From positions 1 through 64,000 of the forward strand of contig NZ_VNHO01000001.1 in assembly GCF_008124715.1 (NCBI RefSeq): a DNA stretch of 64,000 nt, read 5' to 3'. Below the pieces are notes generated by a model, which was given only the letters and a program-made list of their open reading frames with translations, searched no databases and was not told the origin of the DNA. Source of the DNA: Thermosediminibacter litoriperuensis. GTDB taxonomy: Bacteria; Bacillota; Thermosediminibacteria; Thermosediminibacterales; Thermosediminibacteraceae. Position numbers and translations under genes: made by a program. Below are positions 1 to 44,010 of this stretch, one piece after another; position 1 is the first letter of the stretch; every line of letters begins with the position of its first letter.

Positions 1-307
1 CAGCACGGGTTACCAGCTTTACCTGGCGTTACCGGCAGGCCTCCCCGGGTAAGAGCGTTAACCTTCGCCCCGCGCCCGCCCCATATACTCTACCGCCCCT
101 TGGCAGCCTGGGATTTCGCTGTGTTATGCCAGCTCATCCGAACGGTCTAGCCTCCTATGGGGTTCTTGTTCATCAGGCCGTGGCTTTGCCTCCAACTTCC
201 TTCAGATTCCACCTCGCAGTGGACACCCTTGCCTTCGGCTAGCAGGCTAGTGCTGCCTCGCCTGCAGTGGACTTTCACCACCGAGTTAACGCCCATGCCG
301 GGCGCAC
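1..307 (-). mobile_element. Group IIC intron, 5' part (domain I onward), truncated by left edge
   Basis: Read on the minus strand, the segment begins at 307 with GTGCGCCCGGCATGGGCG, the GUGYG 5' end of group II introns. Further in are blocks such as CAAGGGTGTCC, GGAATCTGAAGGAAG, GAGGCTAG and TTACCCGGGGAGG, which I recognise from the bacterial group IIC intron of Oceanobacillus iheyensis. Position 307 lies seven bases after a rho-independent terminator stem, and insertion behind terminators is the hallmark of class IIC. The maturase gene and domains V-VI would lie beyond position 1. It is a self-splicing retroelement; whether it is intact cannot be seen here. Confidence 0.88.
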
Positions 308-17734: not shown

Positions 17735-19762
17735 TTAATCATTATTGTTTTCATCTTTCTTAAAGATATCGCCCACCACATCACCTATGGTTACGTTGAG
17801 TTCTTCTCTGGGCACGGAAGTTTTTTCCTCATTTTTTTTCTCTTTTCTCGGCGGCTGTTCGTCATCGAGCGCCTGTTTTATGCTGAGGCTTATCCTCTTT
17901 TCTTCCGGCTTTATATCAAGGATTTTTGCCTTTACGGTTTCCCCCTCTTTTAACGCATCCTTCGGGGTAGCCACACGTTTTTTGGAAATCTGAGATACGT
18001 GTACGAGACCTTCAACCCCCGGTTCTAATTCCACAAAAGCTCCGAAATTGGTAAGTTTTACTACCCTTCCTTGGATTACCTGCCCGATAGCGTACTTCTG
18101 TTCTATATTATCCCACGGATCGGGGCTGAGCTGTTTCAGTCCCAACGATATACGGCCTCGCTCTTTGTCCACTTTCAATACTTTAACTTCCACTTCTTGA
18201 TTTTCACTCAAAACTTCAGAGGGATGGTTTATCCTCTGCCACGACAGATCTGATATGTGAATCAGCCCGTCGAAACCCCCGATGTCGACAAAAGCCCCAA
18301 AATCGGTCAATTTCTTGACTGTCCCTCGAATGACCTGGCCCTCTTTTACTTTCTCCCAGATTTCCTCCTTCAACTTCTCTTTTTCTTCCTGGAGGAATAA
18401 TTTATGGGAAAGCACCACTCGCTTTTTATCCCTGTCCAGTTCTATAATCTTCAATTTCAGATCTTTCCCTACGTAACCGGACAGGTCAGCTACATATTTA
18501 AGGTCGGCGTGGGATGCAGGGATAAAACCTCTCAATCCCCTGACGTTGACCAGAAGACCTCCTTTTATGCTCTCTATAACCCTTCCCTCTACGGTCTGTT
18601 TCTTTTCAAAAGCCTCCTCCAGATAACTCCAGGCCTCGACCGTATCGGCTCTCTTTTTGGAAAGAATCAGATTTCCCTCTTTATCTTCGAGTTTTAATAT
18701 CAAGACTTTGATCCTATCCCCATTTTTTACGATTTCGGAAGGCGATGAGAAAGGTAAGTTCGACAGCTCGTTCAGGGGTATTATGCCTTCCGACTTATAG
18801 CCTACATTCACCAGAACCTCTTTGTCGCTTACTTTCATGACCGTGCCTTCAACAATTTTACCTTCTGCAAGTTCTGAAATTTCATCATCGTAAGCTACTT
18901 CTCTTTGTTGATTCTCCATTTCTTTCGAAATTTCTTCCATTTTTGTTATAACCTCCTTTATAATCCAGTCAGGTGTAGAAGCACCTGCAGTAATGCCGAC
19001 TTTTTCGACTTCCTGAAACCACTCTTGCTTTATTTCTTCGGCGGTCTCAATATGGTACACCCTTGCTCCTACATTCTGACAAACCTGCACCAGTTTTTTC
19101 GTATTGGAGCTGTTCTTCCCTCCCACAACCAGCATTACGTTAACCAATTCCGCAACTTTTTTCGCCGCTTCCTGCCTTTGTTGGGTGGCGTTACACCTGG
19201 TGTTATGAAAAACCGCCAGATCCAGCTTCTCTTTCAATATATCCATTATCCTCTTCACGTTTTCTTCGGTTTGGGTCGTCTGGACGACAACCCCCACCCT
19301 TTTGTCCGTAAAAAACGCCCTGGCGTCTTCCTCGTTTTCGATTACTACCGCCTCGCCGGGACACCAACCTTTTATACCTTTCACTTCGGGGTGGTTGGGG
19401 TCGCCGATTATCACCACCGTGTAGCCCTTACTGGACAGATCCTGAGCCAGTTTCTGAACTTTTTTAACAAACGGGCAGGTGGCATCGATCACGTTTAAGC
19501 CCCTGGCGCGGGCTCGTTCTATAACATCGGGCGGTACCCCGTGGGTTCGAATCACTAGATTTCCCTCGCTTATATCATCCACATCCACGGCTTTTACACC
19601 CAGGTTCTCCATTTTCTTAACTACCTGCTGGTTGTGTACGATCGGCCCTAAAGTGTAGGTTTTTCCCCCTTTTTTTATCAAATCTTCCAGCAATCGCACG
19701 GCATTTTTGACACCAAAACAAAAACCTGCATGCTCTGCCACTATAATTTGCACAAAACTCAC
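17735..19762 (-). CDS. ispH: IspH-ribosomal protein S1 fusion
   Basis: 675 residues. Residues 1-280 are HMBPP reductase, the last step of the MEP pathway: AEHAGFCFGVKNAV, THGVPPDVI, DATCPFVKKV, TTQTEENV and TRCNATQQRQ supply the three Fe-S cysteines and the TQ(T) and catalytic Glu motifs. Residues about 300-640 are four S1 RNA-binding domains (GKIVEGTVMKV, KQTVEGRVIES, GQVIRGTVKKLTDFGAFVDIGG, GQVIQGRVVKLTNFGAFVELEPG). This fusion is known from several clostridia. The start is either GTG 19762 or an in-frame GTG three codons later. It is the last gene of a long operon. Confidence 0.93.
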   Translation of the reverse strand: MSFVQIIVAEHAGFCFGVKNAVRLLEDLIKKGGKTYTLGPIVHNQQVVKKMENLGVKAVDVDDISEGNLVIRTHGVPPDVIERARARGLNVIDATCPFVKKVQKLAQDLSSKGYTVVIIGDPNHPEVKGIKGWCPGEAVVIENEEDARAFFTDKRVGVVVQTTQTEENVKRIMDILKEKLDLAVFHNTRCNATQQRQEAAKKVAELVNVMLVVGGKNSSNTKKLVQVCQNVGARVYHIETAEEIKQEWFQEVEKVGITAGASTPDWIIKEVITKMEEISKEMENQQREVAYDDEISELAEGKIVEGTVMKVSDKEVLVNVGYKSEGIIPLNELSNLPFSSPSEIVKNGDRIKVLILKLEDKEGNLILSKKRADTVEAWSYLEEAFEKKQTVEGRVIESIKGGLLVNVRGLRGFIPASHADLKYVADLSGYVGKDLKLKIIELDRDKKRVVLSHKLFLQEEKEKLKEEIWEKVKEGQVIRGTVKKLTDFGAFVDIGGFDGLIHISDLSWQRINHPSEVLSENQEVEVKVLKVDKERGRISLGLKQLSPDPWDNIEQKYAIGQVIQGRVVKLTNFGAFVELEPGVEGLVHVSQISKKRVATPKDALKEGETVKAKILDIKPEEKRISLSIKQALDDEQPPRKEKKNEEKTSVPREELNVTIGDVVGDIFKKDENNND

Positions 19763-27439: not shown

Positions 27440-28765
27440 TTACTTAGTATTATTATTATACGCGCTCCTGTCATTTTCCTTCATTACAACCAAATTTTCA
27501 TTAAAAATTCCCGAAAGCCCCAGTCGATTTACCTTTTCCCTAATCGCCTCTTCTTCCGTAAGATAAAGTCCAAGTTTTTTCATTCTTTCATAATACGAAG
27601 CTCCGGCAAAGGTATAGCGCTTGTAAAGCCCTTCGGACGTTTTCAATTCTTCGTTGACGAAGGCTATCATATCGCCTATGGATAGCTCTCTGGGCAGTTT
27701 TAAAAGCTCCATCTTTAGCGCCCTTCGCGCTGCATTATGGCCTGCAAGAATTCCCGTGCATATGGCTTCGGTGTGACCTACAATCGGGCCGGATTTCTCA
27801 CCGGCGCAAAACAGGTTTTCTACCCCCTCAACTCTCATGAAATCGTCCCGGGGCGCCATCGACATGTACCGTATCGAGTTGCCCTTGCTGGCGGCATAAG
27901 GATCCTCGAAGCGGGCATTTTCAAAACCCTTTATTTTTCGAAGTTCCTCTAAACTGAAAAACGGTGTCATGAGCTTCGCATGCCCAGTATCCAGTAAAAC
28001 GATGCTCCTCGCGTAATCTTCCAGAGCGTACTGCTGGCAAACTTTGAGTGATAGCTTTTCCTTATGAACGAATTTATCGGGCAGTTCTATTACAACTACC
28101 CCTTTTTCCTCGAGTTCCCTTCTTATATCGTCCCCGAGAGAGTCTTTGTTCAATTTACAAGAACCGCTCATGGCTCCATATAGTTCCGGGGATCTTTTGC
28201 CAACCAGGTCTTCAGCACCCGCCTTTTTGCTGATACTTACCCTGGGCCCGAATGCCGGACATCTCTGTACGCACATGCAGCAACCATGCCCGTACTTAAG
28301 GCAGTTTCCTACGGGCCCCGATGATCCGGTGGTCTCCACGAACACATCGCCCTCGACCACTTCATCGTCCGACAGGATAACGCCGGTTATAGTTCTCCCT
28401 TTCATCCTGACATCAACGGCTCGAGACATGAATCGTATTTCGATCCCTAGACCCAACAGAAAATCCCTAACCCGGGCCTCTATTTTTGTTACATCGTAAA
28501 GGGTTGCGTGGGAATGACCGGGAAAATTCACATTGCTATGCCTTGCGGTAGCATCGGCGATTTCGAACAATTCACCGGCACCAAGCGCAATCGCCTCCTC
28601 GGCCGCTGTGTACCGGCCGTTGTTCCTCATTATACCTCCCACCAGTCCGCAACCCAGAAGCATATCCGTTTTTTCCAGTATTACTACATCGGCTCCTGCT
28701 TTTTTGGCTGCAAGAGCCGCACCGCAACCAGCCCAGCCTCCACCTATTATTATTACCTTAGGCAT
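27440..28765 (-). CDS. FAD-dependent oxidoreductase with cysteine motif (paralog 1)
   Basis: 441 residues from ATG 28765 (GGGGG nine bases upstream, inside the previous gene). N-terminal dinucleotide fold VIIIGGGWAGCGAALAAKKAG, then a loop YGHGCCMCVQRCPAFG with four cysteines (about residues 176-184) that could bind an Fe-S centre or be redox-active, and the C-terminal FAD motif NLFCAGEKSGPIVGHTEA. The protein is closely similar along its whole length to the product at 33884-35167. It overlaps by eight bases the PyrK-like gene, a likely electron partner. The substrate is unknown; amine or amino-acid oxidation is the inference. Confidence 0.8.
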   Translation of the reverse strand: MPKVIIIGGGWAGCGAALAAKKAGADVVILEKTDMLLGCGLVGGIMRNNGRYTAAEEAIALGAGELFEIADATARHSNVNFPGHSHATLYDVTKIEARVRDFLLGLGIEIRFMSRAVDVRMKGRTITGVILSDDEVVEGDVFVETTGSSGPVGNCLKYGHGCCMCVQRCPAFGPRVSISKKAGAEDLVGKRSPELYGAMSGSCKLNKDSLGDDIRRELEEKGVVVIELPDKFVHKEKLSLKVCQQYALEDYARSIVLLDTGHAKLMTPFFSLEELRKIKGFENARFEDPYAASKGNSIRYMSMAPRDDFMRVEGVENLFCAGEKSGPIVGHTEAICTGILAGHNAARRALKMELLKLPRELSIGDMIAFVNEELKTSEGLYKRYTFAGASYYERMKKLGLYLTEEEAIREKVNRLGLSGIFNENLVVMKENDRSAYNNNTK

Positions 28766-29723
28766 GTGCATTGACCCCCATTACATTTTTGCTTTCGGTT
28801 TGCACCTTACAGAGTTGAAGTCTTTTGCCTCCAACCAGCGTCTCACAGCTGCCGCAAACTCCCTCACCGCAGCACATCTGCGCATTGTTGGAAACAGCAA
28901 GAGCTATTTTTCGCCCGCTCTGCTCCACCAATGCTTTTACCAGATTATGCTGGGTTTCCGAACCACCGCTGTAAACCACTTCATAACCGCCGTTTTCGAT
29001 TAATTCCCGGAGGTAGTTTTCATAGGGAGAACCTGAAAAATCGAAAACTTGCACTCTTACGCCCAGGGATTCCAGGAGTTCCCTGGCTGGGTTGCAGTTT
29101 ATGACTCCCGGATCGAGAAATGCCGTTATATCATTCCCGCCTCTAACGAGGGTCTTCGCGACCAGCACCAGGGATGCCTGACCTATACCCCTCCCGATCA
29201 GCAGACACTTTTTATTAACGCTGGATTTTATATGCTTTAACCCGAAAATGCCGTTGTAGTAAGGGCCTCTTAACAGCAGCGTTCTGTCTTCCCGAGCCAG
29301 ACTTCTCGTCTTGGGACCTATTATCTGCATGGCGAAGGTTAAGGTATTTTTGTCCTCATTCGTATCCATCACACAGAGCGGAAACTCAAAATAGGAGGGG
29401 CTGTTTACTGCCCTTAAGAACACGTATGTCCCGGGCTGACTGTATTCCCTACTTAAAGCCGCCAAAGGAAGGAGGACTTTAAATACTATAAGGTTATTCG
29501 TAACGGTCTTTTTTTCGATTATCTTTACCCCCAGAGTTCTCCGGGGTTCTTTTTTTCTCCTGCCGTTCCATATGAATTCCTGGTAAACGCAAAATCCCTG
29601 CCAACGGCAATCACAGGTCTCCTTACCCTGTAGTATAGAGCAGGCAATACAGCTGTTGGTCTCCGCCAGGTAGCAAGGGCAATAAGGTGATACCGCATCT
29701 ATGCACTGGTAATTGAGAGCCAT
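28758..29723 (-). CDS. PyrK-like FAD/[2Fe-2S] electron-transfer protein
   Basis: 321 residues from ATG 29723, which has a perfect AAGGAGG eight bases upstream; a longer frame has none. Residues 1-50 are cysteine-rich (CPCYLAETNSCIACS and CDCRWQGFC), an unusual added module. Next comes a ferredoxin-reductase fold with an FAD part (PGTYVFLRAVN) and a nucleotide part (CLLIGRGIGQASLVLVAKTL). The C-terminus has the PyrK [2Fe-2S] ligands (CCGEGVCGSCET, then LCK). It would pass electrons between NAD(P)H or ferredoxin and the FAD protein encoded next. Not PyrK itself, since no pyrD is nearby. Confidence 0.8.
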   Translation of the reverse strand: MALNYQCIDAVSPYCPCYLAETNSCIACSILQGKETCDCRWQGFCVYQEFIWNGRRKKEPRRTLGVKIIEKKTVTNNLIVFKVLLPLAALSREYSQPGTYVFLRAVNSPSYFEFPLCVMDTNEDKNTLTFAMQIIGPKTRSLAREDRTLLLRGPYYNGIFGLKHIKSSVNKKCLLIGRGIGQASLVLVAKTLVRGGNDITAFLDPGVINCNPARELLESLGVRVQVFDFSGSPYENYLRELIENGGYEVVYSGGSETQHNLVKALVEQSGRKIALAVSNNAQMCCGEGVCGSCETLVGGKRLQLCKVQTESKNVMGVNAHA

Positions 29724-29792: not shown

Positions 29793-29828
29793 TAAAAAAA
29801 GCCGAATTCCAGCGAATTCGGCTTTTTT
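29793..29828. terminator. Terminator after the mutase transcription unit
   Basis: GCCGAATTC, four-base loop, GAATTCGGC, with A-run on one side and T-run on the other, so it can act on both strands. It overlaps the stop of the P-loop gene at 29827 and parts the mutase genes from the PyrK-like gene. Confidence 0.88.
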
Positions 29829-30909
29829 AACCTTTTTTATGAAATCCCAGTACTTTTAACAACTCCGCAGGGCCGTCCTTTAATACATTAACCACCGGCA
29901 GCGATACCGCTTTTTTTATTTCTTCCCTCAGGAATTTCTCGTCGACGTACCCTGGTTCATATACACCGGTTTCAAACCTGTACCGGGGATAAAAGGGATT
30001 TATGGTCACCGCCACCACCGGCACCTCTTTCAACACCTCAATTCTACCTCCAAAAGACTCTATTCTCTTTGTCGTATTCATCACATCACCCGGATACCCG
30101 CCGATGATAAGTTTTATGGGATCGCTCAGAAGGATGGTCAAACCCTTCAAACGGTTTTTAAAAATATCTACCAGCCTGTTTAACACCGGTTGGGAAACAG
30201 CCGCGGGTATAAATATCGCACAGGCCTTTTCGGTCAAAACTGCCTTTAAAGCGCCAATTATATCTTCGTGGATCAGGGCTGGATAGCGGATGGCTTCGAC
30301 GGTGCCGTCCCGGTTGACCACAGATATCGTTTTAAAACCCCCGAGGATTTGTTTATAAATTTTGCCGGCTTCGGGCAGTTTGAAAATACTGCAAATCTGT
30401 CCGGTCTCCTCAGCCAACTCAATGACATCCGGGTTTCTGGCAGCACCCGTAGCCAATATTATACCTTCCGTTTCAATCATCGGCGCTATTCTGTTTAACG
30501 CTCCATCAACCAGGATGATGTCGCAACCCGCTTTTTCCGTCATTCTATCAAGAACTCTTCTAAGTTCCCGGCTCTTGTTAGGACCTGCAACAACCGCGAG
30601 GCCATCACTCTTCACCGCAGCGATCGAAATTCTGCCCAGAGGTGTCATAATATCTGTCGTCTCCAGAATTTCCAGTTCGGCGCTGCCTGCCCTGAGGCAG
30701 GCAGCCGCTGTAGCCACCACACTGCCCCTTTTTAAAAAAAGGCGGGGTTTTAAAAGCCCCGTTACATTATCTATTTCCTCACCGTCATATCCTATACTGG
30801 TCAAACCTACGACATTATTATTTAAGTATGAAAAACCTTCGAGTAGTGCAGATATCGTAGTGGTTTTACCGGTATTTTTTGCGGTACCGGCTACGCCTAT
30901 TATTCGCAC
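29827..30909 (-). CDS. P-loop protein, possible B12-aminomutase reactivase (KamB-like)
   Basis: 360 residues from GTG 30909 (GGAGG eight bases upstream). Walker A GTAKNTGKTTT is at residues 8-18; a probable Walker B is CDIILVDGALNR near 130. The C-terminal half (ILLSDPIKLIIGGYPGD, VAVTINPFYPRYRFETG) resembles nothing I can name with confidence. Lysine 5,6-aminomutase operons encode accessory proteins (KamB, KamC) that restore inactivated enzyme, and this protein could be of the KamB type. Position 18 bases after the mutase gene supports a link. No MutS-like KamC is seen. Confidence 0.6.
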   Translation of the reverse strand: MRIIGVAGTAKNTGKTTTISALLEGFSYLNNNVVGLTSIGYDGEEIDNVTGLLKPRLFLKRGSVVATAAACLRAGSAELEILETTDIMTPLGRISIAAVKSDGLAVVAGPNKSRELRRVLDRMTEKAGCDIILVDGALNRIAPMIETEGIILATGAARNPDVIELAEETGQICSIFKLPEAGKIYKQILGGFKTISVVNRDGTVEAIRYPALIHEDIIGALKAVLTEKACAIFIPAAVSQPVLNRLVDIFKNRLKGLTILLSDPIKLIIGGYPGDVMNTTKRIESFGGRIEVLKEVPVVAVTINPFYPRYRFETGVYEPGYVDEKFLREEIKKAVSLPVVNVLKDGPAELLKVLGFHKKG

Positions 30910-30927
30910 GCTGCCAACCTCCGAAAA

Positions 30928-32745
30928 TTATAAACTTGTAACTGTGCCCCTGCCGGCTCTTCCCGGGTAAGCCCCTTCCCCGCGGCTTCCCAACAATCCC
31001 CTGTAGAGGGCGTCGACAAAATTGCCGTTCTTTGCTACGGAATCCAGGGTACTTTCTATACCTTCAACAATTTGCGAAGCCCAGATTTCCGAGTTCCGTG
31101 TCGGAGTTATTTCGGCATGCCCGAAAAATCTAAAAGCCGACTGTGTGGCCCTGAGCGTGTCAATTCTAGCAGCTACCGATATGGGGCCGCCGGAGTAGGC
31201 TTCATCAGCGGAAGCGATGGAAATTCCGTCCACGCCCAGCACTGAAGCGAGGGATGCGTGCAGGGCGGTGCTTAGTGATGACTGAACTCTGTCTTCGGTC
31301 TGGGTTAAAAATCCGATAGGTGCACCGCACCAGATCGGGGCGTTCAATATGCTCCTCAGAGCCGAGATCTTGGCCGCGTTAAAATCCACGTAGTTGTCCC
31401 TCATTTGGCCGCTGATCATCACTTCAGGTGAGTAACAGAACAAAGGCTGGAGAATCGGCTTTGCACCCAGCCTAAGCCCCAGCATGGTCACAATTAACAT
31501 GCCCGCAAAGGCTTTATGGGCGGGGACTCCGCAGAGCTCTTCATTCGTCACCACATCGAAGGGCATGTCAAATCTGGCAGCGTATTTTATGGCAGCTACC
31601 GCATCCACAGTAAGCCTTTCGGGATCCGTTCCCCCTCCTAGCGAACCGTAGGCTATATTTATTTTCGTAAGGTCTGCTCCAACCTTTCCCGCAAGAAGCA
31701 CCGTTTCCGGAGTGTTGAGACCCCTGTGGGCTCTAACCTGCCAAAGAGTCGAGGGCATCAATGCATCCTTTATTATCCGCAGGTTTTCATATGTTATGAC
31801 AGAACCGTCTTCTTCGTGGGTGATATAGCCCTCGAAAAAGCCCTCGGTTCTTGCTCCCCAGGAGGGATCAAAGTGCACAACTCCGTCTGCACCCCACGCT
31901 TCGCAGGTCTTAATATGGGCTATGTCCATAAACGGACACCCGGTCCCATACTGGATAAAAACCATGGGATTTTTATCGGCATGCTGCAATTTCAGAGGAT
32001 TGATCCTGAGCTTCAATTTTTCCAGGTAAGTTTCCAGTGCTTTCAATTCTTCAGCGGTCAGATGCCTTGTCTTTTCCTTCAGAGCGCCGCTATCGTAATA
32101 TACTTTAACGACATTGTCGCACAACCTTGCGTATTCCTTTTTAAGTTTTAACACTTCAGTTTCATCGGTGCTCTCCAGCATCCTTTCTCTTATTTTAGCT
32201 CTTTCTACCCCGGGGGTAGTCTTATTTTTCACGTAATCAATTATCCCGTCGACAATAGCGTTCAATAGATTTTCTATCCTCTTGTTTTTAAATGTATAAT
32301 CGTATTTTTCCGTCATATCCTTTTTAAATTTGCTTCTACTTACATCTTCCTTTACGTACTCCCTGCCCTCCACAAACGCCACGGCTTCTTCAACAGTAGT
32401 TCCCGGTCCAAATCCGGCGTCAAATCCGAGTTCAGCAGCCAGTTCCGGCCTTATGGCCATCCCGCCTATGCCTATCCTGACCCTTTCTCTTATTCCGGAC
32501 GCCTCGGCCAGATCGATAAAACTTCCCAGGATTTCGGCCACCCTATAACCCAGGGTTCGACTAATAAGGATGACATCAACATCATTGTCCATAGCGGTCT
32601 TAATTATCTCTTCAGGAGAATAGTCGGGGGGAAGCAGTATCGTATCGTGTTCCGCCTGATCGAGCCCCCTTTTTATCATTTTGAGGCCGATGTCGTGAAC
32701 CGGGTCCAGAGGGGCAAGGAGCACCTTTTTCTTTTGAACAGTCAC
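30928..32745 (-). CDS. B12-dependent aminomutase-like protein, cobalamin domain first
   Basis: 605 residues from GTG 32745 (GGGGGG upstream). Residues 6-130 are a cobalamin-binding Rossmann domain: H17 in DPVHDIG as lower axial ligand, GIGGMAIRP (92-100) and FDAGFGPGT (108-116), which align with the end of OraE/KamE. Residues 135-250 are helical. Residues 255-600 form a barrel like KamD/OraE: CEAWGADGVVHFDP, RTEGFFEGYITHE, AYGSLGGGTDPER and the repeated Gly/Ala strands. In OraE the B12 domain is at the C-terminus, so the order here is swapped. The PLP-holding lysine is not clear (K25 is a candidate). Substrate unknown; carbon-skeleton mutases are an alternative. Confidence 0.75.
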   Translation of the reverse strand: MTVQKKKVLLAPLDPVHDIGLKMIKRGLDQAEHDTILLPPDYSPEEIIKTAMDNDVDVILISRTLGYRVAEILGSFIDLAEASGIRERVRIGIGGMAIRPELAAELGFDAGFGPGTTVEEAVAFVEGREYVKEDVSRSKFKKDMTEKYDYTFKNKRIENLLNAIVDGIIDYVKNKTTPGVERAKIRERMLESTDETEVLKLKKEYARLCDNVVKVYYDSGALKEKTRHLTAEELKALETYLEKLKLRINPLKLQHADKNPMVFIQYGTGCPFMDIAHIKTCEAWGADGVVHFDPSWGARTEGFFEGYITHEEDGSVITYENLRIIKDALMPSTLWQVRAHRGLNTPETVLLAGKVGADLTKINIAYGSLGGGTDPERLTVDAVAAIKYAARFDMPFDVVTNEELCGVPAHKAFAGMLIVTMLGLRLGAKPILQPLFCYSPEVMISGQMRDNYVDFNAAKISALRSILNAPIWCGAPIGFLTQTEDRVQSSLSTALHASLASVLGVDGISIASADEAYSGGPISVAARIDTLRATQSAFRFFGHAEITPTRNSEIWASQIVEGIESTLDSVAKNGNFVDALYRGLLGSRGEGAYPGRAGRGTVTSL

Positions 32746-32757
32746 ACTAGACCCCCC

Positions 32758-32991
32758 TTAATTGTCCTTTTTAAAAAGCCAGGCGTAACTATCCCCGGGT
32801 TTATATATATATCCTCTGATCCTGACCCTAGCACCCGGGCCCTGATGCTGTATGAAGACTATGCTTGCATCTTTAAATCCCAGCTCGTTCATCAGCTGAA
32901 GAGAGAGTCTCTTCCCTTCTTCTTCGTCATCGCAAACCAGAAAAGTCTCTATATCTACGGCATCCATTACTCTTTCAAGTGCTCCTGACAT
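32758..32991 (-). CDS. Small mutase partner resembling the KamE/OraE dimerisation domain, 77 aa
   Basis: 77 residues, ATG 32991 with AAGGAGG seven bases upstream. The pattern TFLVCDDEEEGKRLSLQLMN, LGFKDASIVFIQ, then GARVRIRGYIYKPGD follows the small domain that precedes the cobalamin domain in OraE and KamE (ARK-type helix, GLKDVEV-type strand, GTR-x-ELKG-x-V-strand). Here that domain is a separate gene 12 bases upstream of the mutase, so it is likely its small subunit. The resemblance is by eye. It is first in the unit just downstream of the CTCATC palindrome. Confidence 0.65.
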   Translation of the reverse strand: MSGALERVMDAVDIETFLVCDDEEEGKRLSLQLMNELGFKDASIVFIQHQGPGARVRIRGYIYKPGDSYAWLFKKDN

Positions 32992-33050: not shown

Positions 33051-33776
33051 TTAAATACCCGCACTTTCCCAGTATTTTTCCACATCGAAAACCAGATTCT
33101 CTATATGTTTGACCATAGCGGCTTCCGCCGCCTCCGGGTCCCTGGATGCGATGGATTCGAATATTTTTTCGTGGTCCAGCAGCACCTTGCTTTTAACCTT
33201 TTTCCTTATATACTCGAGTACGGGTGACAGCTGACCGTGCTGCCTTATGAGATCCAAGGCCGCATCAAGTACCCTGTTCCTGGCAGCCTGAGCTATCAGC
33301 TTGTGAAATTTCACGTCATCGTCGGCTATGGAAACACCCTCTTCCAAGTGTTTTTTCTGAGCTTCCAGGATTTCCTCCATTTCCTTTATCTCTTTTTGGG
33401 TGATGTACTGAGCGGCAAGTCTTGCCAACTGACCCTCTATTACTTTTCTGGCAACCAGCATGTCGAGCAATTCCTTCCTGCCGGTGACTTTAATAACATT
33501 TATAAGCTCGTTTCCGTAATGGTTGATCTTCTGCTCCTGCTCTAGTTCCCTTAGTTTTTCCATACCGTAGGGTGTCAGGATCCTGCCTTTAAAACCGACT
33601 TTTTCAGTGTAACCCTCGGCGTCCATTTCCCTCAGTATTCTGCCGGCTGTAGCTTCGCTGACCTCATAGCCCTGCAGCTTTAGATTCTCTCTCACGTAGC
33701 CGGAACCGATCGGCGCCTGTGAATCTGCTATTGCTTTGAGGATCAGATAAAACAAGTGTTTTTTTTCTGAAAACAT
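33051..33776 (-). CDS. Winged-helix/FCD transcription regulator
   Basis: 241 residues. Residues 1-75 are a winged helix of the NrpR/HTH_12 type (FYLILKAIADSQAPIGSGYV, SEATAGRILREMDAEGYTEKV) and not the usual GntR helix. Residues about 85-235 are an all-helical FCD ligand domain with the metal/effector residues D and H in DDDVKFHKLIAQAARNRVLD, H in LLDHEKIFESI and H in MVKHIENLVF. Such proteins respond to small carboxylates. A TATAAT box (33814-33809) lies upstream; the gene stands alone between the two halves of the B12 region, which it probably controls. Confidence 0.8.
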   Translation of the reverse strand: MFSEKKHLFYLILKAIADSQAPIGSGYVRENLKLQGYEVSEATAGRILREMDAEGYTEKVGFKGRILTPYGMEKLRELEQEQKINHYGNELINVIKVTGRKELLDMLVARKVIEGQLARLAAQYITQKEIKEMEEILEAQKKHLEEGVSIADDDVKFHKLIAQAARNRVLDAALDLIRQHGQLSPVLEYIRKKVKSKVLLDHEKIFESIASRDPEAAEAAMVKHIENLVFDVEKYWESAGI

Positions 33777-33883: not shown

Positions 33884-35167
33884 CTATATCACTTTCCGAT
33901 TGAAGAAATCGATCATACCGACTTTCCGAACGCGATTTCTGATTTCTTCTATATCGGTGGTATATAACCCCAGATGTTTCATTCTTTCGAAATAGACGGA
34001 ACCAGAGAAGGTGTATTTTTTGGAAATCCCTTCTTCAGTCTTCATCTGCTCGTTTACATAGGCAATAGCGTCTCCCACCGCCAGATCGGTTGGAATCTCC
34101 ACCAGGCTAACCCCCGCGGCATACCTTACTGCATTAGCCCCGGCCAGGGTTCCGGTGCAGATGGCTTCTGTATGCCCTACAAGCGGTCCCGCCTTTTCCC
34201 CTCCGCAAAAGAGGTTCTCAACCCCCAGGGTTTTGAGGTTGTTGTCCCTCGGAGACATTGCCATATACCTAATGGAATTGCCGATATTGCCTGCATATGG
34301 GTCCTCAAAACGGGCATTTTCAAATCCCGGTATCCTGCGCAACTGATCCAGAGGGAAATACGGCGCCATCAATTTGGCGTGCCCGGTATCCAGTAGTACC
34401 ACGTTCTCAATGAACTCCTTTAGAGCATACTGTTGGCAGGCTTTCTTCGTGAGTATATTTTCATCTTCTCTAACTTCTTCCGGGACAGGGATAACTGCCA
34501 CGCCGGTGGAGTTGAGCTTATCTACTATTTCCTGGGATAATGACTCCTTGAGCAATTTGCAGGAACCGCTCATGGCCCCGTAAGTCCCGTCGGCTTTTTT
34601 CGCCATCATTTCTTTTACGCCGGCCTTTGCGGCAATGCTAACTCGGCCGCCGTAACTGGGACACCTTATTATGCACATAGCGCACCCATTGCCGTATTTT
34701 GTGCAATTGCTCTGGGGTCCGGCAGTGCCGGTACATTCGACGAATACATCGCCATAGAACTTCTCGTCGTTATCGGTTATAACGGCCGTTATTCTGTTTC
34801 CTTCCATTTCAATATCCCTGACACGGCTTCGAGTGTGCACCTCGACTCCGGCCTCCGCCAGTATCCTCCTCACCGCCGGCTCTACTTTGGCTACGTCATA
34901 AAGGGTGGCATGCTTGTGACCGGGAAATTCCACGTTTTTATGCCTGGCTACCGCGTCTGTAACCTGGAATAGCTCTCCGGCCCCCATGGCAATCATTTCT
35001 TCCGCGGCCGTAAATCGGCCGTTGTTTCGCATGATACCGCCTACCAGGCCGGTTCCCAGCAGCATGTCCGTTCTTTCAAGCAGTACAACTTCCGCTCCGG
35101 CTTTTTTGGCGGCCAGAGCGGCGGCACACCCCGACCATCCACCGCCTACGACCACAACTTTAGGCAT
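33884..35167 (-). CDS. FAD-dependent oxidoreductase with cysteine motif (paralog 2)
   Basis: 427 residues from ATG 35167 (GGAGGG seven bases upstream; a GTG lying inside that site is less likely). VVVVGGGWSGCAAALAAKKAG binds FAD, GNGCAMCIIRCPSYGG (near residue 171) is the cysteine loop, and NLFCGGEKAGPLVGHTEA is the C-terminal FAD motif. It is a full-length paralog of the protein at 27440-28765; RNNGRFTAAEEMIAMGAGELF and MSGSCKLLKESLSQEI are shared stretches. It ends the first transcription unit, after the PLP enzyme. Perhaps the two form a heteromer or act on successive intermediates. Confidence 0.8.
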   Translation of the reverse strand: MPKVVVVGGGWSGCAAALAAKKAGAEVVLLERTDMLLGTGLVGGIMRNNGRFTAAEEMIAMGAGELFQVTDAVARHKNVEFPGHKHATLYDVAKVEPAVRRILAEAGVEVHTRSRVRDIEMEGNRITAVITDNDEKFYGDVFVECTGTAGPQSNCTKYGNGCAMCIIRCPSYGGRVSIAAKAGVKEMMAKKADGTYGAMSGSCKLLKESLSQEIVDKLNSTGVAVIPVPEEVREDENILTKKACQQYALKEFIENVVLLDTGHAKLMAPYFPLDQLRRIPGFENARFEDPYAGNIGNSIRYMAMSPRDNNLKTLGVENLFCGGEKAGPLVGHTEAICTGTLAGANAVRYAAGVSLVEIPTDLAVGDAIAYVNEQMKTEEGISKKYTFSGSVYFERMKHLGLYTTDIEEIRNRVRKVGMIDFFNRKVI

Positions 35168-35193
35168 TTTATTACCCTCCACTAAAACTGATA

Positions 35194-36660
35194 TTAGTCA
35201 AGATACCCGCTGTGCTTGGCAACAATTTCCATTAACTTGATAAGAGCTCTTACTGCCCATCTCGCGCGATCTTCTATAATCTGCCCGTTTTCGTCCGTAG
35301 TCCCGAGCCCGGGGGAAATCATTATATTTGCATCGTAAGCCACTGTAGGAATAACCCCCATCTGGGCCACCCCGCTCTGGAATATGTTGGTCCCTGCGTA
35401 CATATCTTCTATCGAGAATATAGGGAGCCCTAGTTCGTCGCCGTTCCAGGTGTTTTCGTAGTTGACTTCCACCGCTCTGCTGTTGTAAGACTTAGTAATT
35501 ATCAATCCTTTCTTTATCTTCGGATGTATCTGTTCAAATTCTTCTTTTACAATGTTGTAAAGATCGTCTACCGGTTTTGTGAGTTCTTCGGGATTTTCTC
35601 TGAGCTCCTTTAAAGCCGCGATGACCCCCAGTAGAGCTTCCTTGCCCGGATCGTTGGTCACGTATGCTGCTTTCCCATAAGACGCCGTCGTACCGTACCT
35701 GTCTCCGTGGTAACCCAGTGCCCTCCTTATATGGACCATATATTCTTCTTTTCCGACGATGAGACCTGCCGTCGTCGATTCGCTGGCTTTATCAAGGCTG
35801 TAAATAATGACGTCCGCCCCGCTCTTTCTGATGTCGTGGCCGATGAAGGGCACTCCCCAGGCATTGTCCAGCACGTAGGGTACGTCAAATTCATGGGCAA
35901 TTTCCGCCAGCCTCTTCTGGAGCACCGGTGTTCCTTCCCCATCCTTAACGCCGTAACCGTAACCCGGAGTGTCGTAAGCTAGAGAAGTTATACCGGCGAA
36001 CATGGATGCTTCTCTTTCAGCCGCAACCCTAATTTTTTTCGCTGAAGCTTCAGGGTCTACTTTGGTCAGGAGTATTACCGGAAAATATTTAATTCCGTGC
36101 ACCGAATAATCTGCACCCACTAGAGGTACTATATGGGTACTCAAGTTGTTTTGCCTTTTCCCGTAAAAGCCCAGCTCTCCAGCGGTACATCCGCGATCGG
36201 ACAGAATATCCTTGAACCTCGGAGGGAACGGCCTTCCGTATCCACCGTGGTGATGCAGATGCTTTTCATAGGGTATGATGTACCTGCTAAGGTAGTTATC
36301 TCCCCTGCCCTGCATCGGTGGGGTAAAAAGCACATCAAAGGTCACCCACAGGCCCGCCTCACAGGTGTTGATAGGCGCCGCATCGTATTCATCACCGTAT
36401 ACGTCCTTTACGATAGCCCTGATTTCGTCCACCAACTTCGCCAGGGGAATAACCTCGGTACTTCCCTTATCAACCGCTTCTCTGACTTTTTTTGTAAGCG
36501 GCGAAGGACAGCCCGATATCGCTCCTGTCAGTCCGAATTTTCCTCTAATCTCCGGGGGTATGCCGATTTCATCGGCAGCTTTCCTGGCTTCCGCATAGAT
36601 GTTTGCGATGTTGGCCTGAAGGTGTCTGTACATCTCGAATTTCTTTTTAAATTTCGGCAT
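35194..36660 (-). CDS. PLP-dependent enzyme, aminotransferase/lyase fold type I
   Basis: 488 residues; AGGAGGT precedes ATG 36660. PLP residues are visible: D265 in VPYVLDNAWGVPF and the Schiff-base lysine K291 in IIYSLDKASES. A His-rich stretch (EKHLHHHGGYGRPFPPRF) and SDRGCTAGELGFYGKRQNNLS are conspicuous. The arrangement resembles large fold type I lyases, tyrosine decarboxylase-like and SepCysS-like enzymes, but I cannot assign one. A beta- or gamma-elimination would make an enamine, fitting the RidA domain encoded 22 bases upstream. Substrate unknown. Confidence 0.7.
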   Translation of the reverse strand: MPKFKKKFEMYRHLQANIANIYAEARKAADEIGIPPEIRGKFGLTGAISGCPSPLTKKVREAVDKGSTEVIPLAKLVDEIRAIVKDVYGDEYDAAPINTCEAGLWVTFDVLFTPPMQGRGDNYLSRYIIPYEKHLHHHGGYGRPFPPRFKDILSDRGCTAGELGFYGKRQNNLSTHIVPLVGADYSVHGIKYFPVILLTKVDPEASAKKIRVAAEREASMFAGITSLAYDTPGYGYGVKDGEGTPVLQKRLAEIAHEFDVPYVLDNAWGVPFIGHDIRKSGADVIIYSLDKASESTTAGLIVGKEEYMVHIRRALGYHGDRYGTTASYGKAAYVTNDPGKEALLGVIAALKELRENPEELTKPVDDLYNIVKEEFEQIHPKIKKGLIITKSYNSRAVEVNYENTWNGDELGLPIFSIEDMYAGTNIFQSGVAQMGVIPTVAYDANIMISPGLGTTDENGQIIEDRARWAVRALIKLMEIVAKHSGYLD

Positions 36661-36682: not shown

Positions 36683-37591
36683 TTATTTAAGCTTTACAAT
36701 CATCTCAATTTCACAGGGGGCATCCATCGGCAGCTCGTTAACCCCCACTGCCGAACGTGCATGGGCTCCGGCCTCTCCGAATATTTGATCCAGCAGTTCC
36801 GAGGCACCGTTTACTACCTTTGGCTGCTGGTTGAAACCCTCGGCGCTGTTTACAAAGCCTACTACTTTTACTATTTTCTCTACATTATCGAGACTTCCCG
36901 CCAAGGCCTTAACAATGCTGAGGCAGTTCAGAGCGCATATCCTTGCAGCTTCATACGCCTCTTCCACAGAAATATCTCTGCCTACCTTCCCCTTATACTT
37001 TAATTCTCCATTTACAAAAGGTATCTGTCCGGCAGTGTAAATGTATTTATCTACCAGAACTCCCGGGACGTAAGCAGCGACAGGTTTAGGCGGCTCCGGC
37101 AGTACGATGCCCAATTCCTGCATTCTTTTTTCGAGAGACATAGCGCACCTCCTTTCCGTTGCTTGTTCCCCGATGGTAACTTCTGCATCCAGTTCAAGCC
37201 CCATCTCATTGCCTGAAACCAGATAGGGGGCTTTTACCACAATGTTATAATGGTTTGGCATATGTGTCTCGTCGTAACCCGCTATACTGCCTATAACCCT
37301 GCCGTTGATTTTTACTACATCGCCTATGACTACAACAGCGCTGTTTTTAACTGCAAAAAATCCTACATAGGCAATTCTGTTTACAGTGTCTCCAGGACCC
37401 TTTGCCTCATCGGTAACGATCAGTTCGTGCACCTCGCCAGCCTTCAGGCACCTTGAGGGCTGGACGATTAGGTTCAAACCTCTTGCCTCGTATTTTCCAT
37501 CCAAGACTACTACCAGGCTGCCTTTCAAAGTTTTTTTTCGTACGTATGGATTGGTCGTTCTAAACATACCGGTTTTGTATGGATCTGCCAT
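36683..37591 (-). CDS. DUF6917-like domain fused to RidA enamine/imine deaminase
   Basis: 302 residues. Residues 1-150 are a strand-rich domain (GSLVVVLDGKYEARGLNLIVQ, VNRIAYVGFFAVKNSAVVVIGDVV) resembling DUF6917. Residues 151-302 are RidA/YjgF: VDKYIYTAGQIPFVNGEL, AARICALNCLSIVKAL, and the carboxylate-binding Arg279 in GAHARSAVGVNELP. RidA hydrolyses reactive enamines/imines left by PLP enzymes, and the PLP enzyme gene follows. At the junction is ATG 37141 with a perfect AAAGGAGGTG seven bases upstream, so RidA may also be made separately. Start ATG 37591. Confidence 0.8.
   Translation of the reverse strand: MADPYKTGMFRTTNPYVRKKTLKGSLVVVLDGKYEARGLNLIVQPSRCLKAGEVHELIVTDEAKGPGDTVNRIAYVGFFAVKNSAVVVIGDVVKINGRVIGSIAGYDETHMPNHYNIVVKAPYLVSGNEMGLELDAEVTIGEQATERRCAMSLEKRMQELGIVLPEPPKPVAAYVPGVLVDKYIYTAGQIPFVNGELKYKGKVGRDISVEEAYEAARICALNCLSIVKALAGSLDNVEKIVKVVGFVNSAEGFNQQPKVVNGASELLDQIFGEAGAHARSAVGVNELPMDAPCEIEMIVKLK
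37139..37156 (-). promoter_or_regulatory. Internal ribosome binding site and ATG for RidA
   Basis: Minus-strand AAAGGAGGTGCGCTATG: a near-perfect Shine-Dalgarno sequence and in-frame ATG at the domain junction of the 302-residue frame, with no stop codon before it. Confidence 0.65.
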
Positions 37592-43746: not shown

Positions 43747-43792
43747 CTTGCTTTCATACAGGCAAATACCTCCTCTCTCCCCAAAGTAATGA

Positions 43793-43975
43793 AGTAGCGC
43801 TCCACCAAAAAACCGGGGGAATTTTTTGGTGACAGTCCTATATCTGTTCGATATAGGCCCAGCACAATCCTCCGAGAATTGGATTGCACTTCGGCGACGA
43901 CCCCTTTCCCCCTGCATCCACGGCCTCTCGCGCCTCCACAAGGGTACTCTTGGTCTGTCGCGCCTCTACCTCAAC
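43793..43975 (-). promoter_or_regulatory. Lysine riboswitch (L-box)
   Basis: On the minus strand the leader shows the L-box core blocks in order: GAGGTAGAGGCGCGAC, GAGTACCC, GGGGAAAGGGGTCGTCGCCGAAG, GTGCTGGG, ACTGTCACC, and GGAGCGCTACTT, which pairs back with the start. High lysine favours the downstream terminator and shuts off lysA. Confidence 0.93.
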
Positions 43976-44010
43976 TCATTCCGAGATGAGGTATGCATAT
44001 TTTTTGCTTA

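Follow-up and report, generated by a model that had tools for sequence, protein, structure and literature searches.

A DUF6917-Rid fusion gene of Thermosediminibacter litoriperuensis with a putative internal start at the domain border

The cyanobacterial protein CcmM is described in excerpts of PMC7059596 as being produced in a full-length and in short forms from one gene, and IspH-RPS1 is a known kind of fusion (excerpts of PMC4746011). Among Rid proteins, PA0814 and ACIAD3089 belong to the Rid1 subfamily; both were tested as deaminases and are inactive on iminoarginine, while Rid1 proteins deaminate 2-aminoacrylate, and an arginine equivalent to Arg-105 of RidA is the criterion for a deaminase-active Rid (all from excerpts of PMC5619798). 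DUF6917 is listed by Pfam as a family of unknown function, and none of the papers searched names it.

Here, we describe a locus in a window of 64,000 nucleotides of T. litoriperuensis (the whole stretch of DNA that was analysed) at which a DUF6917 domain and a Rid-family domain share one frame. Judged from its sequence, it is rather probable that two neighbouring operon genes have fused here, likely with two products; the case is known from one genome.

The fusion gene and its two halves

The gene is a frame of 302 codons (37591-36683) that joins DUF6917 (PF21891) to a Rid-family domain and is free of stops inside. The preliminary description had seen this single frame joining two domains correctly and had left its strand unstated, which is minus. 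The features of the gene are, in window positions:

36683..37591, minus: DUF6917-Rid fusion ORF, 302 aa, with ATG at 37591 and TAA at 36685-36683
37172..37543, minus: DUF6917 domain (PF21891), by Pfam match and AF2 model, mostly strands
37142..37168, minus: linker of nine codons, EQATERRCA, with GAA as first codon (37168-37166) where the sister family has its stop
37146..37155, minus: AAAGGAGGTG, putative Shine-Dalgarno for internal initiation, pairing with the 16S tail at -20.0 kcal/mol
36683..37141, minus: Rid part (imine-deaminase type), 152 aa from the internal ATG, predicted from profile matches and Arg279

Domain membership was defined by a score above the Pfam gathering cut-off, and both DUF6917 and the Rid superfamily exceed it: PF21891 matches amino acids 17-140 with 161.6 bits (cut-off 27; profile positions 2-126 of 127), PF14588 amino acids 155-298 with 88.1 bits (cut-off 35) and PF01042 amino acids 168-299 with 58.4 bits (cut-off 27.3). 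The NCBIfam subfamily RidA (TIGR00004) scores 44.1 bits against a cut-off of 106.25, and the protein is not an archetypal RidA; the label RidA, used initially, holds for the superfamily and is too loose for the subfamily. The fusion gene is present in a single copy in the genome, a draft of 2.34 Mb in 68 contigs. Both halves look alive by their conserved residues: the DUF6917 half matches all 17 columns that are invariant among 34 other DUF6917 sequences and the Rid half all 20 columns that are invariant among 22 other Rid sequences, and of the columns with 90% conservation, 23/23 and 57/58 are kept, respectively.

The solved chains nearest to the Rid half are 3d01, PA0814, 2otm and ACIAD3089; two of these four are the Rid1 proteins PA0814 and ACIAD3089 (9bk9, E 1.2e-33; 9bkb, E 9.2e-21), beside the unnamed 3d01 and 2otm. 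Arg279 is invariant in the 23 aligned Rid sequences and aligns with an arginine in all five solved chains shown, including the archaeal UPF0076 protein 2dyy. Going by the motif, this column is presumably Arg-105 of RidA, and Arg279 predicts deaminase activity of the Rid half.

An alignment that mixed DUF6917-only and Rid-only rows with the fusion was misaligned (DUF6917 rows at 10-30% identity to the fusion, versus up to 81% otherwise) and was discarded; therefore, folding covered the DUF6917 part alone and not the whole fusion. The AF2 model of this part has a mean pLDDT of 94.8 and consists mostly of strands. A Foldseek search with the model found no clear relative (best E 0.29), and a second structure search gave a best Z of 4.4 (77 residues, rmsd 3.0) with translation-factor barrels on top, too low for kinship. 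A sequence search of the PDB with DUF6917 found no match up to E 5.

Separate genes in relatives and the conserved cluster

DUF6917 is present in 26 of 61 genomes (the organism's own and 60 relatives), and only the own frame, at 303 codons, is of fusion length; the other 25 have 141-187 codons. An even draw of 398 genomes of the phylum has DUF6917 in 40 genomes with 47 genes, again with only one frame of fusion length and 222 codons in the next longest. A wider draw for other fusions, from the class of genome G062, comprised three genomes only. The sole other genome of the genus examined (G001) lacks DUF6917. Of the 13 sister-family genomes, 11 have a Rid gene of the fusion type, as against none of the eight other genomes of the own family, six of which carry DUF6917 without it; this Rid thus seems dispensable in the lineage.

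The preliminary description had proposed that two formerly separate genes were joined and had suggested looking for them in orthologues. This is how they are found: all 11 sister-family genomes with this Rid have adjacent, separate genes, with the DUF6917 stop directly after ..IG and then a spacer. The spacer carries a site of the type GAA(A/G)GGAGGTG before the Rid gene; the ten that were scored have -19.2 to -20.1 kcal/mol. In 10/10 scorable sister-family pairs, the Rid start lies 35-67 nt past the DUF6917 stop and in another frame. Genome G012 (locus L002 and its double L065) was left out of this frame count because the script did not detect a Rid start in the frame where one was expected; in this single-contig genome, the Rid start is seemingly frame-shifted relative to the relatives. 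When all 24 other distinct sites are scored (sites with identical 20 upstream bases were counted once, and L076 and L078 were merged), 17 are out of frame and seven are in frame with stops between, the latter about chance level. A Rid match lies within the examined flank of 26 of 40 DUF6917 loci and is missing from that of the other 14 (own genome left out); together with these 26 loci, the fusion hints, as a 'Rosetta stone', at a joint function of DUF6917 and Rid imine deaminases.

Downstream of the fusion follows a set of genes that is conserved in both families:

35194..36660, minus: PLP-enzyme-like protein, 488 aa, with its ATG 22 nt past the fusion stop
33884..35182, minus: FAD-dependent oxidoreductase (GIDA family), 432 aa, a conserved neighbour
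33051..33776, minus: FCD-domain regulator, by profile match, part of the conserved cluster
32758..32991, minus: 77-aa protein conserved in the cluster, with no Pfam or NCBIfam match
30928..32745, minus: mutase-like protein of 605 aa that begins with a B12-binding domain, by profile match
29827..30909, minus: KamB-type aminomutase reactivase, 360 aa, 234.7 bits (cut-off 210)

Wherever the examined locus was long enough, the order in both families is DacB-type gene, DUF6917, (Rid), PLP enzyme, FAD enzyme, FCD regulator, 77-aa protein, B12-binding mutase-like protein and KamB-type reactivase. The 605-aa B12-binding protein, its 77-aa partner and the KamB-type reactivase (29827-32991, minus strand) resemble an aminomutase system that is unnamed in the libraries used. 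The PLP-like protein (35194-36660) has counterparts of 80-93% identity in 18 of the order's 21 other genomes; it has no Pfam match, and its NCBIfam matches stay below the cut-offs, with the SelA/DgaE type best. Two related FAD oxidoreductases, at 27440-28771 and 33884-35182, both on the minus strand, stand in the same cluster.

Outside these two families, three other clostridial loci have the order DUF6917, FAD enzyme, Rid, and one clostridial locus has a diaminopimelate dehydrogenase after DUF6917 (268.1 bits, cut-off 180.6). All five actinobacterial loci that were read have a threonine-synthase-like frame after DUF6917; the two of them that were scanned are of the PALP family, below the NCBIfam cut-offs. 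A related Rid adjoins a PALP enzyme of the threonine-dehydratase type, likewise below the NCBIfam cut-offs. These predicted neighbours assign DUF6917 and Rid to amino-acid chemistry, a setting in which imines and enamines form. Rid would hydrolyse reactive imines or enamines that the PLP and FAD enzymes next to it release, and DUF6917 may be an accessory protein of the same chemistry.

The junction and its putative internal start

The junction reads ..ATC GGG GAA CAA GCA ACG GAA AGG AGG TGC GCT ATG TCT CTC.., and AAAGGAGGTG (37155-37146) lies 4 nt upstream of an in-frame ATG (37141-37139), with a gap of 6 nt between AGGAGG and ATG. A Shine-Dalgarno-like site followed by ATG at the domain border, with no stop between, is just what the preliminary description had reported. 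With the 16S tail, the internal site is predicted to form a duplex of -20.0 kcal/mol and the DUF6917 start one of -12.4 kcal/mol. For comparison, the window and another 20 stretches of this genome, 452,973 bases in all with 339 mechanical ORFs that are 150 aa or longer, were scanned for internal ATGs, which were counted only if they were at least 60 codons from either ORF end, while each ORF start was represented by the best-scoring start within the first 30 codons. The internal Rid start is the only one of 2012 in-frame internal ATGs to reach -20.0 kcal/mol, and just 3 of the 339 ORF starts are as strong; the internal start is thus well beyond chance. The stop-free linker on its own is unremarkable, since nine random codons have no stop with a probability of about 0.58. 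In predictions of local RNA folding, GGAGG of the internal site is 0.54 unpaired (0.06-0.70 in ten relatives), and in this model the site is as open as those of the relatives. At sequence level, the locus shows the hallmark of a dual-product gene of the CcmM kind, a strong ribosome-binding site and an in-frame start at the domain border. Four promoter-like sites were found between 36600 and 37750, none on the coding strand; a separate Rid transcript is therefore unsupported, and so is a promoter before DUF6917.

The gene likely makes both the fusion and free Rid, an option that had been raised at the outset and that the intact and very strong Shine-Dalgarno sequence supports. Ribosomes starting at DUF6917 would run through and yield the 302-aa fusion, while ribosomes entering at the internal AAAGGAGGTG-ATG would yield free Rid of 152 aa. 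Free Rid is perhaps the more abundant form because its site is the stronger one (-20.0 versus -12.4 kcal/mol), and we propose that the cell can afford the fusion since production of free Rid is still possible. Against this, ribosomes arriving from DUF6917 could cover the internal site, and the site may simply be inherited. Proteins of the Rid superfamily are trimers with active sites between the subunits. As a long shot, fused and free Rid chains might form mixed trimers with one or two DUF6917 domains, tethering the imine deaminase to one of two enzymes of the B12-mutase-like cluster, the PLP or the FAD enzyme, with the imine quenched where it is released and the ratio set by the internal start. 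A literature search for internal initiation in fusions found no paper.

The scan for internal sites also picked position 18940, where IspH borders on ribosomal protein S1. The window contains an ispH-rpsA (IspH-S1) fusion at 17738-19762 on the minus strand, with an internal ATG at 18940 and TAAAGGAGGTTATAACAAAAATG at the junction. In a sample made up of the 30 best among 100 genomes that gave a match, plus a further set of loci, 45 of the 46 different IspH sequences that come from other genomes have (A/G)AG GAG codons at the junction, while only 31% of the Glu and Lys codons of these sequences are GAG or AAG (log10 product -50, ignoring relatedness). ATG, GTG or TTG stands at a distance of 7 or 8 codons, counted from where the aligned motif begins, in 49/50 rows; locus L158, where IspH is unfused, has the motif and no such start codon. 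These data point to an internal start for free S1 that is under selection at the ispH-rpsA junction, and the conservation of the junction codons suggests that these bacteria may stably maintain the expression of fused plus free forms. The excerpts of PMC4746011 contain neither 'internal' nor 'Shine' nor 'start codon', and a literature search for ispH with rpsA found no paper. The window also has a lysine riboswitch (43787-43976, minus strand, 134.1 bits) and a group II intron D1-D4-3 RNA (54-223, minus strand, 144.1 bits).

Origin of the fusion and comparison with known systems

At the position of the ancestral DUF6917 stop, the fusion reads GAA, and the linker of 27 nt from this GAA runs in frame to the ATG. 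The earlier idea that the stop was lost is right in that GAA has replaced it and falls short as the whole story, since 10/10 sister-family Rid genes are out of frame: with the scorable pairs in different frames, the fusion needed an in-frame junction besides the loss of the stop, and a point loss of the stop as sole event was rejected. G003, a genome of the own family and the closest by identity for most proteins of the cluster, also has GAA at the ancestral stop, followed by six further codons and a stop; it has no Rid, and the PLP gene comes next. Since GAA is shared, the loss of the stop may predate the split of G003 and the fusion genome, with Rid then deleted in G003. In the DUF6917 tree, the fusion genome falls inside its family (97/90), while G003 groups with genus g4 (85/74) with the fusion genome outside; this counters a sister relationship of G003 and the fusion genome as taken from protein identities. 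As genus g4 has its DUF6917 stop at the ancestral place, the shared GAA may reflect one loss with reversal, two losses or a wrong tree.

Several other explanations have to be weighed against a fusion of neighbouring operon genes with two products. Rid could have been lost in the ancestor of the family and regained by recombination with a donor resembling the sister family, an event that would have made the in-frame junction; the eight other family genomes, all without this Rid, are in favour, and the Rid tree does not part the fusion copy from the sister family. The same tree is unresolved, with the fusion copy not nested, leaving descent versus transfer undecided, and Rid and the PLP gene next to it have the same best identity to the sister family (88% each); we regard the regain as rather unlikely. 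Alternatively, only the fusion is made and the internal Shine-Dalgarno sequence is left over from the separate Rid gene, from whose site it does descend. A relic would fit poorly with a site that is not weakened (-20.0 versus -19.2 to -20.1 kcal/mol in the ten sister-family genes) and that the local fold leaves as open as in the relatives; we consider this quite unlikely.

It is very unlikely, too, that a sequencing or assembly error hides two genes with a stop between them. The fusion comes from a single draft genome in 68 contigs, no sibling has the locus, and several linker codons are one change away from a stop. Yet G003, of the same family, shares GAA at the ancestral stop and reads on for its six codons, and an indel error would join other frames, both of which hit stops inside Rid rather than between the genes. 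Moreover, all 39 matches of 11 genes or gene parts of the window to the loci of four relatives are in one piece, with no sign of frame errors in the region (one match stops where the locus ends, and the second FAD enzyme is matched by its paralogue in those loci).

The favoured reading of a fusion with two likely products describes an event that is probably recent or near-neutral: a gene fusion caught while the ribosome-binding site of the second gene is still fully intact. The kind of gene is already known, and the example is neat but modest. Separate DUF6917 and Rid genes of Tepidanaerobacteraceae and other Bacillota encode the same two proteins in the same order as the fusion, and those of the sister family share with the fusion locus the gene cluster and the ribosome-binding site of Rid; the separate genes differ from the fusion by a stop codon and a spacer, and by frame in 10/10 sister-family pairs and 17/24 sites. 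The Rid1 proteins PA0814 and ACIAD3089 are near to the Rid half in sequence and share the arginine, whereas the fusion has an N-terminal DUF6917 domain and its activity is predicted only. In cyanobacterial CcmM, in-frame internal ribosome entry yields the C-terminal part alone, as is proposed here, and both forms are reported as necessary (excerpts of PMC7059596), while the DUF6917-Rid fusion is known from its sequence alone. The IspH-RPS1 fusion (excerpts of PMC4746011), present in the same window, resembles DUF6917-Rid in having, here, a Shine-Dalgarno sequence at the junction; it is widespread and its site codons are kept among relatives, whereas DUF6917-Rid is seen in one genome.
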